DNA of 64,000 nucleotides. Origin: Streptomyces sp. L2. Lineage in GTDB: Bacteria > Actinomycetota > Actinomycetes > Streptomycetales > Streptomycetaceae. The first letter of the stretch is position 1, and each line of letters opens with the position of its first letter. Positions 8,895-58,767 of this stretch are shown here, in pieces. The translations under genes were made by a program, and so were the position numbers. The DNA is taken from NCBI RefSeq assembly GCF_004124325.1, contig NZ_QBDT01000001.1:248001-312000 (forward strand). Reading direction: 5' to 3'. The notes beneath the pieces are model-generated. The model was not told the DNA's origin, made no database searches, and worked only from the letters and a program-made list of their open reading frames with translations.

Positions 8895-9479
8895 ATGTCC
8901 GTCAGCACCCTCGACCCGCGTACCGCGCTTGTCGTGATCGACCTCCAGCAGGGCATCGTCGGCATGCCCACGCAGCCGCACGCCGCATCGGACGTGGTGG
9001 CCCGCACGGCCGAACTCGCCGCCGCGTTCCGCGCCCGGGACCTGCCCGTGGTCTTGGTACGGGTCTCCTTCGCCGCCGACGGCTCGGACGCGCTGCCCGG
9101 CCGCACCGAGCGCCAGGGACCGGCGCGCGCGTTCCCGGAGGGCTGGGACGTCGTCGTGGACGAGCTGTCCGGGCACCCGGGGGACATCCTGGTCACCAAG
9201 CGCAACTGGGGCGCCTTCCACGGCACCGGCCTCGACGTGCAGCTCCGCCGCCGGGGCGTCACCCAGATCGTGCTGACCGGCATTTCGACCAGCATCGGCG
9301 TGGAGTCCACGGCCCGCGCCGCCTACGAGCACGGATACAACGTCACCGTCGCGACCGACGCCGTCACCGACTCCGACCCGGTCTCGCACGCCCACGCCGT
9401 CGAGCGGATCTTCCCGCGGCTCGGCGAGTCCGGCAGCACCGCGGAGATCCTCGAACTCCTGGCCAAGACGCACGCCTGA
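8895..9479 (+). CDS. Isochorismatase-like cysteine-hydrolase family protein lacking the catalytic Cys
   Basis: A 194-residue alpha/beta hydrolase of the isochorismatase superfamily. The Asp of the active site is in VVIDLQQGI, and the Lys is in VTKRNWGAF. The third position, usually Cys in nicotinamidase-like members (TGIxTxxCVESTAR), reads TGISTSIGVESTAR, so the nucleophile is Gly. This substitution is known in true isochorismatases such as PhzD, which hydrolyse a vinyl ether without a covalent cysteine. The reaction is therefore more likely vinyl-ether hydrolysis than amide hydrolysis. The ATG at 8895 follows GAAAGG. It stands alone and ends at a strong terminator. Confidence 0.85.
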   Translation: MSVSTLDPRTALVVIDLQQGIVGMPTQPHAASDVVARTAELAAAFRARDLPVVLVRVSFAADGSDALPGRTERQGPARAFPEGWDVVVDELSGHPGDILVTKRNWGAFHGTGLDVQLRRRGVTQIVLTGISTSIGVESTARAAYEHGYNVTVATDAVTDSDPVSHAHAVERIFPRLGESGSTAEILELLAKTHA

Positions 9480-13822: not shown

Positions 13823-15796
13823 ATGGACAAGCGGTACGAGGTGTACGCGCTGGCCGACGGGCAGTTCTACGACACGCCCGACCGGCTCGCGACGGCCGCC
13901 CAGGAGCCCCCCACACCGTTCGCGACGGCGTGCCGCGCGGTCCCGGACGGCTGGCACACGGGGCGCACCGGCGACTGGCTGACGATGACCCCGCTCGGCG
14001 CGGACGGCACCCCGCTCCCGGGGCCCGAACAGGGCTGGAAGGTCCACGCGTCGGCGACGGCGGCGAACGCGGACCGGATCGCCGGGATCGTGTGGGACTA
14101 CTGCGTGCCGCGCCGCATCCCCTTCAAGTTCGTGCCGGCCCCGCACCTCCTGCACCTGAGGAACGCCAAGTACGCCGGCCGGGACACCAGCGGCAAGTTC
14201 GTCACCGTCTACCCGGCGGACGAGGAACAGCTGCACCGGGTCCTGTGCGAACTCGGGGCGCTGCTGGAGGGCTTCGAGGGGCCGTACGTCCTCACCGACC
14301 TGCGCTGGGCCGAGGGCCCGCTGTACGTCCGCTACGGCGCCTTCGCGCGCCGCTACGTCGTCGACGAGCGCGGCTCCCTGGTCCTCGCGGTGCGCGACGG
14401 CGACGGCCGCCTGGTCCCGGACCGGCGGACACCGACCTTCCAGGTGCCCGGCTGGGTGTCGCTGCCGGAGTTCCTGCGCCCGCATCTGGAGGCGCGCAAC
14501 ACGACGACGGTGGGCGACCTGCCGTACCGCATCGAGAAGGCGCTGCACTTCTCCAACGGCGGCGGGGTCTACGTCGGCACGGACACCCGGGACGGGCGGC
14601 GGGTGGTGCTCAAGGAGGGGCGGCCGCACGCGGGGCTCGCCGCCGACGGCGCGGACGCGGTGGCCCGGCTGGAGCGGGAGAAGGCGGCGCTGGAGCGGGC
14701 CGCCGGGACGGGCGTCGTACCGGAGGTGCGGGACTGGTTCGCGCTGGGCGACCACCGGTTCCTGGTGATGGAGCACCTGGAGGGCCGCACGCTCAACTCC
14801 TTCTTCGCCGAACGGCACCCGCTGCTCACCCCGGACCCGGACCCGGAGCGCGTCGCCGCGTACACCGCGTGGGCGCTGCGGATCCACGGGGCGGTGGAGC
14901 GGGCGGTCGAGGCGATCCACGACCGCGGCCTGGTCTTCAACGACCTGCACGTCTTCAACATCATGGTCGGCCCCGACGAGGAGTCGGTGCACCTCATCGA
15001 CTTCGAGGCGGCGGCCCCGGCCGAGGAGAACGGCCGGCAGACCGTCGCGCACCCCGGTTTCTTCGCTCCGCCGGACCGCCGGGGCAAGGACGTCGACCGG
15101 TACGCGCTGGCCTGCCTGCGGCTGGCCCTGTTCCTGCCGGTCACCACGCTGTTCGTGGTGGACCGCGGCAAGGCCGCCCACCTGGCGGACGTGATCGCGG
15201 GGCAGTTCCCGGACGTGCCGCGCGCCTTCCTGGACGAGGCGGTCGCCGAGATCACCCGGGACGCCTCGGGGAACCGGGCCCGCAGCAGACCGGCCCCGCC
15301 GGTGGTGCCGGAAGACTGGCCGTACAGCCGGGACTCGATGGTCAAGGCGATCCTCGCCTCGGCGACCCCGGAACGCGACGACCGGCTCTTCCCCGGCGAC
15401 ATCGCCCAGTTCTCCGACGGCGGCGGCCTCGGCCTCGCGCACGGCGCCGCCGGTGTGCTGTACGCCCTGGAGGTGTGCGGGGCCGCCCGCTACGACGAGG
15501 GCGAACGCTGGCTGCTGGACCACACCGCCTCGCCCCCGCCGGGCACCCCGCTCGGCCTGTACGACGGACTCGCGGGCGTCGCCCTGGTCCTCGACCGGCT
15601 CGGACACCGGCAGCGCGCACTGGACCTGGTCGACGGCATCCTGCGGGAGAACTGGCAGCGCCTGTCCCCCGACCTGCACGGCGGCCTCGCCGGCCTCGGC
15701 CTGGTCCTCGGGCACCTCGCGGACACGACCGGCGAGCCGGCTCTGCGCGAACGGGCCGCCGAGGCCGCCGGGATCGTCGTACGCCACCTCGCCTAA
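13823..15796 (+). CDS. ramC: Class III lanthipeptide synthetase LanKC (RamC/AmfT type), N-terminal portion ended by in-frame TAA
   Basis: A 657-residue product with the start typical of RamC proteins (MDKRYEVYALADGQFYDTP) after an AGAGGGAGG binding site. Order: an N-terminal lyase region (about 1-200); a Ser/Thr kinase domain (about 210-490) with NGGGVYVG, VVLKEG, the catalytic-loop equivalent FNDLHVFNIMV and the metal motif LIDFEAA; and the first half of a LanC-like cyclase starting at GGGLGLAHGAAG. The complete enzyme phosphorylates and eliminates Ser/Thr of the RamS precursor and closes labionin or lanthionine rings. TAA at 15794-15796 stops the frame inside the cyclase. The missing half continues in the same frame from 15800, so this is a nonsense codon and not a frameshift. 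It could be a pseudogene, a two-chain enzyme or a sequence error. Confidence 0.88.
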   Translation: MDKRYEVYALADGQFYDTPDRLATAAQEPPTPFATACRAVPDGWHTGRTGDWLTMTPLGADGTPLPGPEQGWKVHASATAANADRIAGIVWDYCVPRRIPFKFVPAPHLLHLRNAKYAGRDTSGKFVTVYPADEEQLHRVLCELGALLEGFEGPYVLTDLRWAEGPLYVRYGAFARRYVVDERGSLVLAVRDGDGRLVPDRRTPTFQVPGWVSLPEFLRPHLEARNTTTVGDLPYRIEKALHFSNGGGVYVGTDTRDGRRVVLKEGRPHAGLAADGADAVARLEREKAALERAAGTGVVPEVRDWFALGDHRFLVMEHLEGRTLNSFFAERHPLLTPDPDPERVAAYTAWALRIHGAVERAVEAIHDRGLVFNDLHVFNIMVGPDEESVHLIDFEAAAPAEENGRQTVAHPGFFAPPDRRGKDVDRYALACLRLALFLPVTTLFVVDRGKAAHLADVIAGQFPDVPRAFLDEAVAEITRDASGNRARSRPAPPVVPEDWPYSRDSMVKAILASATPERDDRLFPGDIAQFSDGGGLGLAHGAAGVLYALEVCGAARYDEGERWLLDHTASPPPGTPLGLYDGLAGVALVLDRLGHRQRALDLVDGILRENWQRLSPDLHGGLAGLGLVLGHLADTTGEPALRERAAEAAGIVVRHLA

Positions 15797-17089: not shown

Positions 17090-18871
17090 ATGACCAGCCG
17101 TCTCGATGGCGCCCCTTCACCCGACACGTGCCCGGCTCCCGCCGGTGCCGTGGCTCCGGCCGGGAGCGGTCTGCCGCGTGCGCTGCTCCGGTACGGCGCG
17201 GGGCGCTGCGTCGCACTGGGTGCCATGAGCATGGGCGCCACGGCCGTCGGGCTGCTGCTGCCGGCCGTGCTGGGCCGGACCCTGGACCGGCTGCTCGCTC
17301 AGGCGCCGGCGACCCGCTGGGTGGCCTGCTGCGCGGCCCTGGTGCTGCTGCACGCGGTGCTGGAGGCGGGCACCGACGTGGTGTCCGGCACGCTCGACGC
17401 GCGGGCCACCGGGTGGCTGCGCCGCCGGGTCACCGGGCACGTCCTCGCGGTGGGCCCGCGCGCGGGGGCCCGGTTCGGCGCCGGCGACCTCGTCGCTCGC
17501 CTGGTGGGCAACGCCACGCAGGCCGGAACGGCGCCGGGTGCGCTGGCCGCGCTGCTCGCGGCACTCGCCGGCCCGGTCGGGGGTGTGGTGGCGCTCGGTC
17601 TCCTCGACCCGTGGCTGGTGCTCGTGTTCCTCGCCGGCGCACCCGTGCTGGCGCTGCTGCTGCGGGCGTTCGCCCGGGACACGACGGCGTGCGTCGCCGA
17701 GTACCAGCGGGAGCAGGGCAGGATCGCCGCCGCTCTCGCGGAGGCGGTCGGCGGCCACCGTACGATCCGGGCGGCCGGCGTCGAGGACCGCGAGACGGCC
17801 CGGGTGCTGGCCCCGCTGCCCGCGCTCTCGCGCGCCGGGCACCGGATGTGGCGGGTGCAGGGGCGGGCCGCGGCCCAGGCGGTGGCCGTGGCCCCGCTGC
17901 TGAACCTGGGGGTGGTCGCCGTGGCCGGGCTGCTCCTCGCCCGGCACCGGCTGTCGGTGGGCGACGTGCTGGCCGCCTCCCGGTACGCGGTCCTCGCGAG
18001 CGGCTTCGGGGTGCTGGTCGGACAACTCGCCGCGCTCAGCAGGGCCCGCGCCGCGACCGGCAGGCTCGCCGAGGTGCTGGCCGAACCCGCCCCCGCCCAC
18101 GGCGCCCGGCACCTGCCGCCCGGCCCGGGGCGCCTCGAACTGCGCGGTGTGTCGGCTCTCCGGGGCGGCCGTACCGTCCTGGACGGCGTGGATCTCACCG
18201 TGCCGGGCGGCAGCACGCTCGCCGTGGTCGGCCGCTCCGGCGCCGGCAAGTCGCTGCTCGCCGAACTCGCCGGCCGGCTGGCCGACCCGGACACCGGCGA
18301 GGTGCTCCTGGACGGGGTCCCGCTACGGGACCTCGCCCACGACGAACTGCGGAGCGCGGTCGCCTACGCCTTCGAACGCCCGGCTCTGCTGGGGGAGACC
18401 ATCGAGGACACGCTCCGCCTCGGCCTTGCCGACCCCGAGCCGTCCGCGATCCGGGCCGCCGCGCGCCGGGCCCACGCCGACGCGTTCATCCGCCGCCTCC
18501 CCCACGGCTATGCCACGCGCTGCGCCGACGCGCCCCACTCCGGCGGAGAGTCGCAGCGCCTGGGCCTCGCCCGCGCCTTCGCGCACGGCGGCCGCCTGCT
18601 GATCCTGGACGACGCCCTGTCCAGCCTGGACACGGTCACCGAGCACCACATCACCGAATCCCTCCTGTCGTCCGCCCCGTCTCCCACCCGCCTTCTGATG
18701 GCGCACCGCGTGACGACGGCCTCCCGTGCCGACCGGGTCGCCTGGCTGGCGGACGGCCGCGTACGGGCGGTGGGCACGCACGCGGAGCTGTGGCGGGACG
18801 CGGAATACCGGGCGGTGTTCGGGGGCCTCACGACAGGCCCCGGCCGCCCGGACGAGAAGCCGGACGGCTGA
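17090..18871 (+). CDS. ramA: ABC transporter permease/ATPase, RamA/AmfA-like half-transporter
   Basis: A 593-residue fused membrane-ATPase protein. Six membrane helices occupy about residues 40-310 (for example MSMGATAVGLLLPAVLGRT). The ATPase domain has Walker A GRSGAGKSL, signature SGGESQRLG, Walker B LLILDDALSSLD and the H-loop LLMAHRV. It probably pairs with the next gene product as a heterodimer exporting the modified SapB-like peptide. Start: ATG at 17090 with GTGAGG upstream. It is followed after 70 bp by ramB. The name rests on locus order as well as the family. Confidence 0.87.
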   Translation: MTSRLDGAPSPDTCPAPAGAVAPAGSGLPRALLRYGAGRCVALGAMSMGATAVGLLLPAVLGRTLDRLLAQAPATRWVACCAALVLLHAVLEAGTDVVSGTLDARATGWLRRRVTGHVLAVGPRAGARFGAGDLVARLVGNATQAGTAPGALAALLAALAGPVGGVVALGLLDPWLVLVFLAGAPVLALLLRAFARDTTACVAEYQREQGRIAAALAEAVGGHRTIRAAGVEDRETARVLAPLPALSRAGHRMWRVQGRAAAQAVAVAPLLNLGVVAVAGLLLARHRLSVGDVLAASRYAVLASGFGVLVGQLAALSRARAATGRLAEVLAEPAPAHGARHLPPGPGRLELRGVSALRGGRTVLDGVDLTVPGGSTLAVVGRSGAGKSLLAELAGRLADPDTGEVLLDGVPLRDLAHDELRSAVAYAFERPALLGETIEDTLRLGLADPEPSAIRAAARRAHADAFIRRLPHGYATRCADAPHSGGESQRLGLARAFAHGGRLLILDDALSSLDTVTEHHITESLLSSAPSPTRLLMAHRVTTASRADRVAWLADGRVRAVGTHAELWRDAEYRAVFGGLTTGPGRPDEKPDG

Positions 18872-18941: not shown

Positions 18942-21194
18942 GTGAGGGAGCTGCGGGCACAGGGCGTACGGTTCCTGCGCGGACGCTGGGGGGTGGTCGC
19001 GCGGCTCGGCGGCTGGTCGGTGCTGGAGGCGGCGCAGACCTTCGTCACCGGGTACGCGCCGGCGCGGGCGCTGGACGCCGGGTTCCTGGCCGGGAACGCG
19101 CGGCTCGGGCTGCTGTGGCTGGCGGGCGCGGGACTCGCCGTCTGCGCGGGGGCGTACGGGACGGGGCGGGTGTACGGCGTCGTCGCCGCGCTGGTCGAAC
19201 CCGCGCGGGACCGGCTGGTCGAGCGGGTGGTGGCGCGCGGGGTGCGCGAGGCGGACAGCGGGGCGCTGTCCCGGCTCACCCAGCAGGTGGAGATCGCGCG
19301 GGACACTCTGGCCGGTCTCGTGATGCTCTCCCGCTCCTTCCTGTTCACCGCGGCGGGTGCGCTGATCGGCCTGTTCTCGCTGGCGCCGCTGCTGCTGGTC
19401 GTCGTCGTACCCCCGGTGCTGGCCGGTCTCGTCCTCTTCGCGGCGACCCTGCGCCCGCTGGCCCGGCGTCAGGAGCGGTTCCTCGTGGCCGACGAGGCGC
19501 TGGCCGCGGAGTTGGGCGCGGTGGGGCCGGGGTTGCGGGACATCACGGCGGCCGGCGCGCAGGGGTGGGCGGCGGCGGGTACGGGCCGGCGGATCGAGGC
19601 GGAGGTGCGGGCCGCGCGGGCGCTGGCGCGCTGGAGCGTGGTCCGGGTGGCGGCGCTGGCTGTGGGCGGCCAGCTGCCCGTGGTCCTGCTGCTCGCGGCG
19701 GCGCCGTGGCTGCTGCGCCATGACGTCACTCCGGGCGCCCTGGTCGGCGCGCTCGCCTATGTCACGCAGTCCTTGCTGCCGGCTCTGCAGAACCTCGTCC
19801 ACGGCTTGGGCACGAGTGGCTCACGCCTGACGGTGATCCTGCGTCGGCTGACCTCGCCTGCGGGGCGCTCCGCTTCGGACGCGATCCGCCGTCGTCCGCC
19901 TGCGGCAGCGTCTGGGCTGGTCGCGCAGTTCCCCGCGCCCCTTCCGGGCACTGCCCTCCCCGGAGCGGACGCCGCCGAGCCCTCCACCGCAGACGACGCG
20001 GGCCGCCCTCGTTCGCCCGCAGCGCCGTCGGGGCCGATCGCGCAGATCCCCGCGCCCCTTCCGGGCGCTGCCCTCCCCGGAGCGGACGCCGCCGAGCCCT
20101 CCACCGCAGACGACGCGAACCGACCTCGTTCGCCCGCAGCGCCGTCGGGGCCGATCGCGCAGTTCCCCGCGCCCCTTCCGGGCACTGCCCTCCCCGGGAC
20201 GGACGCCGCGGAGCGCTCCACTGCGGATGACGCGAACCGACCTCGTTCGCCCGCAGCGCCGTCGGGGCCGATCGCGCAGTTCCCCGCGCCCCTTCCGGGC
20301 ACTGCCCTCCCCGGGACGGACGCCGCGGAGCGCTCCACTGCGGATGACGCGAACCGACCTCGTTCGCCTGCAGCGCCGTCCGGGCTGGTCGGGCAGATCC
20401 CCGCGGCCCTTCGGGGCGCTGCCGTGTGCGGGGCGGGGTTGTCCGTGGGGCTTTGGGGTGAGGGTGTTCCTGCGCTGGAGCTCTTCGGCGTCACCTTTGC
20501 CTATGGGGCGGCTAGTGCGGCCGTGCTCGATGGGCTTGACCTGGTTGTCCCGCCGGGTGGGCATCTTGCTGTCGTGGGGCCGAGTGGGGTGGGGAAGTCG
20601 ACGCTCGCGGGTCTCGTCGCCGGCCTGCTGGAAGCGCGGGAGGGGGCGATTCGGGTGTTCGGGCGGGCTGTGCCGGGGGCGGAGGCGGCGGGGGCGCGGG
20701 TGTTGATCCCGCAGGAGGCGTATGTGCACGGGGGCACGCTTGCCGAGAATCTCGGCCTGTTCCGGGCGGGTCCGGTGCCCGAGGGCGAGCTGCTGGCCGC
20801 CGCCGAGGCCGTCGGGCTCGGCCCGCACATGGCCTCGATGGGCGGCCTTGGCGCCCGGGTGGATCCGGCGGCGCTGTCGGCCGGTGAGCGCCAGTTGATC
20901 GCGCTGACGAGGGCGTACCTCTCCCCCGCGCCGCTGGCGCTGCTCGACGAGGCGACCTGCCACCTCGACCCCGAGGCGGAGGAGCGCGCCGAGCGGGCCT
21001 TCGCCGCGCGCCCGGGCGGCACCCTGGTCGTGGTCGCGCACCGGATCAGCTCGGCCCGCCGCGCCGCGCGCGTCCTCGTGCTGGACGGACCGCGCACCGC
21101 CTACGGCACGCACGACGAACTCCTGCGGACCTCGGCTCTCTACCGGGACCTGGTCGGCGGCTGGACGGCGGCGCCGGCCGCCCCCGCCCGGTGA
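18942..21194 (+). CDS. ramB: ABC transporter permease/ATPase, RamB/AmfB-like, with a 39-residue tandem repeat in its linker
   Basis: A 750-residue second half-transporter. The membrane domain spans about 1-295. The ATPase domain (about 510-745) has Walker A GPSGVGKST, signature LSAGERQLIAL, Walker B LALLDEATCHLD and VVAHRIS. Between them, where relatives have a short linker, lies an insert of about 160-180 residues made of a 39-residue unit (GLVAQFPAPLPGTALPG... to RPRSPAAPS) repeated four times plus a partial copy. Relatives are nearer 600 residues. Bases just after the repeat (20440-20640) have fewer G/C third positions than the rest of the gene. The start is uncertain: GTG at 18942 is chosen, with GTG at 18930 an alternative. 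The stop abuts the ramR stop. Confidence 0.85.
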   Translation: MRELRAQGVRFLRGRWGVVARLGGWSVLEAAQTFVTGYAPARALDAGFLAGNARLGLLWLAGAGLAVCAGAYGTGRVYGVVAALVEPARDRLVERVVARGVREADSGALSRLTQQVEIARDTLAGLVMLSRSFLFTAAGALIGLFSLAPLLLVVVVPPVLAGLVLFAATLRPLARRQERFLVADEALAAELGAVGPGLRDITAAGAQGWAAAGTGRRIEAEVRAARALARWSVVRVAALAVGGQLPVVLLLAAAPWLLRHDVTPGALVGALAYVTQSLLPALQNLVHGLGTSGSRLTVILRRLTSPAGRSASDAIRRRPPAAASGLVAQFPAPLPGTALPGADAAEPSTADDAGRPRSPAAPSGPIAQIPAPLPGAALPGADAAEPSTADDANRPRSPAAPSGPIAQFPAPLPGTALPGTDAAERSTADDANRPRSPAAPSGPIAQFPAPLPGTALPGTDAAERSTADDANRPRSPAAPSGLVGQIPAALRGAAVCGAGLSVGLWGEGVPALELFGVTFAYGAASAAVLDGLDLVVPPGGHLAVVGPSGVGKSTLAGLVAGLLEAREGAIRVFGRAVPGAEAAGARVLIPQEAYVHGGTLAENLGLFRAGPVPEGELLAAAEAVGLGPHMASMGGLGARVDPAALSAGERQLIALTRAYLSPAPLALLDEATCHLDPEAEERAERAFAARPGGTLVVVAHRISSARRAARVLVLDGPRTAYGTHDELLRTSALYRDLVGGWTAAPAAPAR
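19911..20440. repeat. 117-bp in-frame tandem repeat inside ramB
   Basis: Exact period 117 bp (39 codons): the TCGCGCAG block recurs at 19921, 20038, 20155 and 20272, and in altered form (TCGGGCAG) at 20389. Its CCCCGCGCCCCTTCCGGGC core resembles a repeat that I know as abundant between Streptomyces genes. A relative (CCCCGCGCCCCTTTGGGGC) is present in this window at 58251-58269. Units 3 and 4 are nearly identical, suggesting recent expansion. Confidence 0.9.
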
Positions 21195-21803: not shown

Positions 21804-22223
21804 TGCCCGCCCCCTCGAACTCGCCGTATCCACCTGTGCGCGCCAGACGCACCGTGTCCGTACTCCGTACTCGTGACTCGTGACTCGTGACTCGTGACTC
21901 GTGACTCGTGACTCGTACTCACCGTGCCCGTGTCCGGGCGTGTCCCGTCGTGCTCGGTGCCCTGATGGTGAGCGCGTGCCCCATTGTTGGCGGCCGTCAC
22001 CGCCCGCGTGCGCGGAGAATCGGCCATCACGATGCGCGGGGGCGCACGCAGGGCGCCCGTACGCCACCGCGCGCTTCCACTGCGGGGGCATGGCCCGGGC
22101 CGGCCGGGGTACGCAGCAGGGTTTCCCCTCCCCCGCGGACCCGTGCCCGGGCCGGCGTGTCCGGTGTGCACCGCTCCGCGTTCGCCGTGCGCGGATCGCC
22201 GGTACGAGGGAGTCTTGACCCGG
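21804..22223. other. Divergent intergenic region between ramR and SpoIIE-like gene
   Basis: A 420-bp gap that must hold both divergent promoters. The only clear structure is the ACTCGTG heptamer array at 21869-21916. Open frames on both strands through this interval are partly created by that array (a seven-residue periodic peptide) and are rejected. Confidence 0.5.
21869..21916. repeat. ACTCGTG heptanucleotide array upstream of ramR
   Basis: Six perfect tandem ACTCGTG units (21869-21910) plus a seventh ending in A instead of G. Short arrays of this kind are prone to slipped-strand length change. It lies 66-113 bp upstream of the ramR start, where changing length could shift promoter or activator spacing. 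Confidence 0.9.
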
Positions 22224-47241: not shown

Positions 47242-47655
47242 GGCCGGGCACCGGGCCGGACGAGGGCTCAGGACGCGGGCTTAGGCCGGGCATCGGGCCG
47301 GACCAAGGGGCTCAGGACGTGCGCCGAGGCCGGACACCAGGCCGCACGAAGACCTCACGACCCGGGCCGAGGCCAGACACCAAGCCGCACGAAGACCTCA
47401 CGACCCGGGCCGAGGCCAGACACCAAGCCGCACGAAGACCTCACGACCCGGGCCGAGGCCAGACACCAAGCCGCACGAAGACCTCACGACCCGGGCCGAG
47501 GCCAGACACCAAGCCGCACGAAGACCTCACGACCCGGGCCGAGGCCAGACACCAAGCCGCACGAAGACCTCACGACCCGGGCCGAGGCCAGACACCAAGC
47601 CGCACGAAGACCTCACGACCCGGGCCTAGGCCGGGCACCGGGCCGGACCAGGGGC
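47242..47655. repeat. 43-bp minisatellite filling a convergent intergenic gap
   Basis: Seven consecutive copies of a 43-bp unit; GCCGCAC recurs at 47341, 47384, 47427, 47470, 47513, 47556 and 47599, nearly without change. Diverged 43-45 bp relatives extend to both sides, so the whole gap between the convergent phosphatase and sigma-factor stops is repeat. The period is not a multiple of three, so the frame crossing it is not a gene. On the minus strand the sigma gene's final GCGTCCTGA belongs to one of the units. Confidence 0.92.
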
Positions 47656-58180: not shown

Positions 58181-58272
58181 GGTTGTTTGTTCGGGTGCGG
58201 GTGCGTCGTGGCTTGTCGCGCCCACGCGGCGGAGCCGCATGTCGACACAGCCCCGCGCCCCTTTGGGGCGCT
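58181..58272. repeat. Streptomyces-type palindromic intergenic repeat between convergent stops
   Basis: About 90 bp filling the gap exactly between two convergent stop codons. It has a GT-rich start, TGGCTTGTCGCGCC, a GCGGCGGAGCCGC hairpin and the tail CCCCGCGCCCCTTTGGGGCG. I know similar sequences as highly repeated between Streptomyces genes. It probably acts as a two-way terminator. Its tail is related to the core of the ramB repeat. Confidence 0.7.
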
Positions 58273-58767
58273 TCAGTCAAGCAGGTCGAACACCGACTCC
58301 CAGTTGGACTCAGGGCCGTCTGCTATGCGGATGCCCATGTCTCGTAGGCGGGTCAGGCTGGACCGGTAGGCGGGGTGGGTGGTCAGGGCTTCTGTCACTC
58401 GGGGGAGGACGGCGGTCGGGATGTTCAGGCCGGCGGTCTCGCAGAGGGTGGCGACGGCGAGGGTGTCGGCTATGCCCGCCGCCCATTTGTTGATGGTGTT
58501 GAAGGTCGCGGGTGCGACCACCACGGCGTCCGGGGCAGGGAAGGGGCGCGGGTCGTCCGGGGTGCGCCAGGCCGAGCGGATGGGGCGGCCGGTCTGGGCC
58601 CGGACCGCCTCGGCGTCGAAGAACCCGTTCATCGCGAGCGGCGTGGCGATGACCCCGACCTCCCAGTTCCGCTCCTGGGCGGCGGTGATCAGTTCGCCGA
58701 TGCCGGAGGCGGAACCGGCCGCGCAGACGATGACGTAGAGGAAGGGTTTCCCGGCGTGTTCGGTCAT
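58273..58767 (-). CDS. Flavoprotein (PPC-decarboxylase/HFCD-like)
   Basis: A 164-residue protein of the flavoprotein family that includes phosphopantothenoylcysteine decarboxylase and epidermin-type decarboxylases. YVIVCAAGSASGIGELITAA forms the FMN phosphate loop, DAVVVAPATFNTINKWAAGIADTLA is the diagnostic central motif (the family usually has PA(S)ANT(I/M)(A/G)K), and the C-terminus is a helix. Unlike CoaBC it has no synthetase domain, so it is not the coenzyme A enzyme. The substrate is unknown. It is a single gene, tail to tail with the GH114-like gene. Confidence 0.82.
   Translation of the reverse strand: MTEHAGKPFLYVIVCAAGSASGIGELITAAQERNWEVGVIATPLAMNGFFDAEAVRAQTGRPIRSAWRTPDDPRPFPAPDAVVVAPATFNTINKWAAGIADTLAVATLCETAGLNIPTAVLPRVTEALTTHPAYRSSLTRLRDMGIRIADGPESNWESVFDLLD

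Follow-up and report, generated by a model that had tools for sequence, protein, structure and literature searches.

Probable capture and tandem multiplication of a dispersed Streptomyces repeat in the interdomain linker of the exporter RamB

Introduction

A tandem array with a period of 117 bp lies inside ramB of Streptomyces sp. L2, between the regions that encode the membrane and ATPase domains of an ABC exporter. The question raised by this locus is where the array came from, and how an exporter came to carry it in frame. The array was analysed in a window of 64,000 nucleotides (positions 248,001 to 312,000 of contig NZ_QBDT01000001.1; coordinates are those of the window unless stated otherwise) and compared with the host genome, related loci and proteins, and other Streptomyces genomes.

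Results

The RamB linker contains a 117-bp tandem array

The ramB gene (18942..21194, forward strand, GTG start) encodes an ABC exporter half-transporter of 750 aa with a match to the Pfam domain ABC_tran. It lies beside genes for the partner half-transporter RamA, a class III lanthionine synthetase (LanKC) and a LuxR-type regulator, which is a RamB-type context; half-transporters named RamA and RamB have a role in the export of SapB. The membrane domain (18951..19850, forward strand; 300 residues as query) is recognised by its helices in an AlphaFold2 model, no Pfam domain being named at these positions, and the ATPase domain (20469..21191, forward strand) is placed by Pfam, the boundary query and the model. 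Between them lies a linker of 206 aa (19851..20468, forward strand), defined by the domain boundaries and predicted to be disordered: in the single-chain model (mean pLDDT 70.1, pTM 0.46), residues 306-503 have a pLDDT below 50 and most of the linker lies at 30-37. The partner half-transporter RamA (17090..18871, forward strand) has a linker of 13 aa and was used as a control.

Tandem Repeats Finder places the array at 19878-20423 (period 117, 4.7 copies, 92% matches, score 819), and a second repeat search also gave a spacing of 117. Each unit comprises 39 codons and starts with the first base of a codon. The RamB reading frame stays open across the array, which supplies 182 of the 750 codons (24%). 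A preliminary description of this DNA had reported an in-frame repeat of four full 39-codon units and a partial one, lengthening the protein by about a quarter, with the last two full copies nearly identical. All of this is borne out; only the span that it gave, 19911..20440, was displaced by about 20-30 bases. The full units occupy 19878..19994, 19995..20111, 20112..20228 and 20229..20345, and the partial fifth unit 20346..20423, all on the forward strand. Copies 1 and 2 share 88.9% identity, copies 2 and 3 share 89.7%, and the partial copy 5 is 80-85% alike over 91 bases. There is no difference between copies 3 and 4, where the period of 117 is perfect over 140 bases, suggesting that the last duplication step was recent or that these copies were recently homogenised.

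A dispersed repeat makes up 56-58 of the 117 bases of the unit by profile, and up to 76 by BLAST. The element parts lie at 19896-19951 (40.0 bits), 20013-20068 (33.4 bits), 20130-20185 (37.6 bits), 20247-20302 and 20363-20420 (20.7 bits) in units 1 to 5, respectively. The remaining half or so of the unit has no dispersed relative and, among the host genome matches, is found in the array alone: a search of the host with the 117-bp unit, in which 40 of 319 candidate places were scored, gave 90 matches at E<=0.01, of which five are the array and the other 85 all fall within query positions 9-90. The core of the repeat, CAGTTCCCCGCGCCCCTT, occurs six times in the window with up to three mismatches, five of them in the array, against an expectation of 0.20 from shuffles. 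A scan of the array region (19700-20700) against Rfam gave no match at E<=1. Parts of the array are matched by seven Streptomyces plasmid records. Two other tandem arrays lie in the window. One, upstream of the LuxR-type regulator at 21869-21920, repeats the heptamer ACTCGTG (7.6 copies, 97% matches); the other, at 47323-47639, has a 43-bp unit (7.4 copies, 98% matches) and lies between two called genes in convergent orientation.

The array is related to a largely intergenic repeat of Streptomyces

The core CAGTTCCCCGCGCCCCTT occurs 266 times in the host genome with at most one mismatch, compared with seven times for the reversed control. A 66-base profile of the short form, built from copies outside the window, was used to survey 2.464 Mb of the host, made up of four contiguous blocks (2.0 Mb in total), shorter pieces mostly chosen for listed matches (400 kb) and the window; the blocks were also sited where matches were listed, so the density of copies is not a genome average. 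With genes called by a codon-score script, the 259 copies divide into 239 intergenic copies, nine across gene ends and 11 inside called genes. The surveyed sequence is 85% coding, and blind placement would put about 85% of copies in genes. The 11 copies in called genes comprise the five of the array, two well inside other genes, three at gene ends or a likely miscalled start, and one weak match judged to be chance, so that only two genes besides ramB contain a clear copy well inside them in the surveyed 2.464 Mb. A weak match at 9231-9292 lies in an ordinary gene (E 1.2e-4) and was taken as chance.

The consensus is G+C-rich and passes through GGCTGGTCGCGCAGTTCCCCGCGCCCCTT, often followed by a hairpin arm. 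In a long form of the repeat, the AGTT of the short form is replaced by a longer stretch with a small hairpin of its own. A long-form copy lies between two called genes at 58190..58275 (forward strand, E 3e-19), and the intergenic core at 58251-58269 to which the preliminary description had related the array is its 3' part. The proposed origin of the unit from an intergenic repeat agrees with the position of 239 of the 259 relatives and applies to only part of the 117 bp. Folding energies revealed no clear rule of hairpin loss in coding copies: RamB copies 1, 3 and 4 fold weakly (-7.0), and copies 2 and 5 have values (-12.4 and -10.5) close to those typical of 212 other copies (median -11.2).

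The 238 intergenic copies with both neighbours called are found in 10 divergent, 92 convergent and 136 tandem gaps, compared with 347 divergent, 203 convergent and 775 tandem gaps of at least 60 bases in the surveyed sequence. The repeat therefore avoids promoter regions, and the preference for convergent gaps is as expected of an element near gene ends. Neighbouring copies up to 200 bases apart outside the window form 87 same-strand pairs and 13 inverted pairs; tandem spacings there peak at 74-76, and multiples of three are not favoured among them (20 of 67). In any given frame, 85-87% of the 252 copies outside the window lack a stop codon, and in-frame capture should therefore be easy wherever a linker tolerates it.

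The exact core is present in 54 of 101 Streptomyces genomes, including the host, with a maximum of 751 copies; it is missing from the other 47 and from all 15 genomes of other genera in the order. Genome searches, which may have left out records very near the genome of the window, returned no near relative and no other genome of the host species. No prior description of the repeat was found among the matches listed in the open-access literature, and strings of the core itself matched nothing in the open-access literature. In passages of PMC1590033, the sole mention of Streptomyces is in the title of a reference. REP-like mobilisation by a Y1 (RAYT) transposase was considered and set aside, as the two matches to Y1_Tnp (PF01797) in the host, at L269 and L270, lie in stretches of about 3.3 kb each where the best element match has an E of 0.19, so that neither has a convincing copy of the repeat beside it in these stretches.

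The RamB linker is hypervariable, and a second clade carries the repeat in reverse

The array is absent from all 25 other ramB loci with a measured linker and from all 119 other RamB proteins among the best 120 of 1307 listed. An ancestral repeat domain, which the preliminary description had named as a finding that would refute its reading, is thus rejected for the orthologues examined. The protein set has 121 rows, namely the best 120 of 1307 plus P0001, and P0001 and P0002 (the 750-aa form) are the same host protein. The linker is 206 residues long in the host and 18-175 in the 25 other loci, and 22-330 across the 121 rows (median 51); its ends are BLAST boundaries, and differences of a few residues may be noise. 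It is in frame in all 26 measured loci. The RamA linker is 13 aa in 25 of the same 26 loci and 14 in one, and this internal control suggests that the length of the RamB linker drifts. Linker lengths are unequal in 58 of the 71 RamB pairs whose domains are at least 95% identical, and in 28 they differ by at least 20 aa; P0069 and P0099 are identical in the membrane domain (292/292 residues) and the ATPase domain (239/239) and have linkers of 193 and 96 aa. Other tandem repeats are found in the RamB linkers of L074 and L087 (period 147 bp), L093 (84 bp) and L078 (36 bp). The codon score is -0.26 in the host linker versus 0.385 and 0.243 in the RamB domains; the average of other RamB linkers is -0.06, so the poor score is only partly special to the array. 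A second RamB-like protein of the host has a 76-residue linker without the array, and host RamB itself sits on a long end branch (0.22) of the protein tree. The linker of P0050, from S. monashensis, contains a piece resembling the end of the membrane domain (GSGTSGSRPAVLLRR), which appears to represent a different route to a longer linker.

A search of 29 loci for the repeat gave matches at E<=1 only in the RamB linkers of L079 (E 2.3e-13), L081 (3e-8), L092 (4e-5) and L075 (0.0048), all in reverse orientation; the first three are of the long form and L075 is a weaker short-form match. At the protein level, 11 of the 121 rows score as repeat-derived, two of which are the host's and the other nine of which are all in reverse frames. 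Two further proteins possess the short motif GRGAV. These 11 non-host proteins all fall in one clade of 21 rows (SH-aLRT 99), and the host protein lies outside it. The simplest count would be two captures in RamB, in opposite orientations.

The repeat is found in frame in unrelated proteins

In-frame insertion is found in more than one unrelated gene: RamB, P0122 and P0123. P0122, an acetate-CoA ligase with a GNAT domain (L221:14836-17724), possesses a reverse short form between domains, ahead of its ATP-grasp domain, and P0123, a StiP-family protein with PRTase, TRSP, StiP and PELOTA domains, possesses a long form between the PRTase and TRSP domains. Among the 120 best proteins listed for each, two relatives of P0122 (P0122 itself and P0124) and 40 of P0123 score as repeat-derived. 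The best-matching frames differ by protein (S+2, L-0/L-1, S-2 and L+1/S+1).

Of 30 loci for StiP-family stress proteins from a search of 41 genomes, 10, the host included, carry the repeat in frame in the PRTase-TRSP linker (L274, L275, L279-L282 and L300-L303), with both orientations, as inverted pairs, in L300-L303. None of the 30 linkers breaks the frame or contains a stop codon, and among 600 shuffled linkers there was no repeat match. The peptide VAQFPAPL is read in L280, L281, L301, L302 and L303 and in copy 1 of RamB, so the same peptide arose in two unrelated proteins.

A tree was built from 41 of the 120 StiP-family proteins (7 short, 27 long and 7 others, with unclear rows excluded), in which the seven short forms need seven changes between short and long, with 10 forks open. 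The short/long labels were set by eye, after automatic labelling had placed four long-like rows among the short, and the short forms were read as protein, except for P0249, which has the same linker as L275 and was seen as DNA. Two short/long pairs, P0243/P0123 and P0249/P0248, are well-supported sister pairs. The TT of the short form is absent at that place in the long form, and so a plain deletion does not explain a change from long to short. Gene conversion from other copies would explain such changes, and renewed insertion or exchange between strains might also do so. These linkers suggest that gene conversion may replace one dispersed copy with another, in coding sequence too, with the frame kept. 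That the Streptomyces repeat gives rise to interdomain linkers recurrently, with its coding copies still exchanging with intergenic ones, is a tentative reading, which we favour rather less than its converse.

Alternative explanations for the array

The ramC gene upstream, which encodes the class III lanthionine synthetase, contains an in-frame TAA at 15794-15796, a site that is read through in all 22 relatives compared. The ram operon, and hence RamB, may therefore be idle in the host, and the array could have grown only because RamB was no longer needed. Such decay fits the presence in the same genome of a second LanKC gene without a stop (G000:C1:7715127-7721581), which is followed after 2 kb by a gene for a RamB-like half-transporter. 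Against this, domain pN/pS is not raised in host RamB (mean 0.29 over 12 pairs, versus 0.33 over 66 pairs of others, from 13 chosen loci), though pN/pS would not register a recent loss, and long linkers are found in L074 (167 aa), L078 (163 aa) and L087 (174 aa), where ramC has no stop at this site. The RamB domains look selected, and decay as the sole reason for the array is unlikely, although its tolerance in this host may partly reflect loss of function.

Somewhat less likely still is an adaptive array, in which linker length or the repeat peptide would tune the coupling of membrane and ATPase domains or bind something. The frame is kept in every measured linker, though any working protein needs its frame, and length changes recur among RamB relatives. 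Two of six comparisons between array copies gave pN/pS values of 0.34 and 0.42, so some constraint on the repeat peptide is possible; the other four gave 0.90-1.63, the counts being small and the comparisons non-independent. It is also difficult to reconcile a tuned length or peptide with linkers of 22 to 330 aa built with several different repeats, or with the twofold difference in length between P0069 and P0099, whose domains are identical. The selected-looking domains, the copy pN/pS of 0.34 to 1.63, the low linker pLDDT and the scarcity of stops in the copies together point to a captured repeat that is tolerated, and not to a functional motif.

An exact 117-bp repeat can be miscounted, but an assembly error behind the identity of copies 3 and 4 is very improbable in a contig of 7.78 Mb from a genome in two contigs, and the differences among copies 1, 2 and 5 show the array itself to be genuine. 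The reverse direction, in which the dispersed repeat derives from a coding sequence such as RamB, would account for the shared sequence itself but is scarcely credible given dozens to hundreds of copies in many Streptomyces genomes, a forward RamB copy in the host strain alone (against 119 other proteins, best of 1307), and coding copies elsewhere in differing frames and strands.

Discussion

The array is very probably the product of a dispersed repeat that entered the ramB linker in frame, was tolerated and was multiplied in tandem, giving a long disordered tether under little sequence constraint. A short-form copy of the repeat, which usually forms a hairpin, would have entered the region of ramB encoding the flexible connection between membrane and ATPase domains. 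It would have been tolerated there in frame because stop codons are rare in the repeat and the linker can vary in both length and sequence. The element, together with about 40-60 bp of adjoining sequence, would then have multiplied by tandem duplication in steps of 39 codons. We infer the insertion event itself, growth by slippage or unequal crossing-over, and near-neutrality for transport; insertion and growth are not seen directly, as the genomes compared include no close relative in which the site is empty or smaller. The preliminary description had presented the locus as an example of an intergenic repeat captured without breaking the frame, and this is supported with two refinements: the dispersed repeat accounts for only part of the unit, and RamB is not the sole case, given the hypervariable linkers of its relatives and the other proteins that carry the repeat. 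The best reading of these cases is that repeats with few stops now and then enter disordered linkers in frame, where they are tolerated and later expand.

Repeats of the REP, BIME and ERIC kind are present in hundreds of copies, are mostly intergenic and hairpin-forming, and often occur in tandem or inverted groups. The Streptomyces repeat shares their copy number, intergenic siting, hairpins and grouping, and differs from the REP type in that no link to a Y1 transposase was found in the stretches at L269 and L270. In VNTR variation, gain or loss of in-frame units changes the length of disordered protein regions. The RamB linker likewise varies by in-frame units, but its unit contains a dispersed intergenic repeat.

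A close parallel is provided by the Rickettsia palindromic elements (RPE; Ogata et al. 2000 and 2002), each of which, according to passages of PMC10969869, encodes a conserved peptide, and nearly half of whose copies lie in genes. The same passages state that in-frame fusions by such palindromic elements are not unusual, that their frequency in Rickettsia is, and that protein evolution by in-frame repeat fusion is conceivable in other prokaryotes (PMC10969869). As described there, RPE and the Streptomyces repeat are alike as short dispersed palindromic repeats found in frame in unrelated genes and tolerated, and the 259 matches in 2.464 Mb form a dispersed family of many copies, as RPE do. RPE keep one frame and a conserved peptide, whereas the frame and strand of the Streptomyces repeat vary between proteins; and nearly half of RPE lie in genes, compared with 11 of the 259 copies here, five of which are the array. 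Tandem growth inside a gene, as in the RamB array, is a further difference from RPE as these passages of PMC10969869 describe them.

Rickettsia provides the best-documented cases in which dispersed palindromic repeats are fused to proteins in frame. Streptomyces, a free-living and G+C-rich genus, has up to hundreds of copies of its repeat per genome, with a signature that can be recognised, so that the process can be counted: how often the repeat enters genes, in which frames, which linkers it uses, and how its copies later exchange or multiply.
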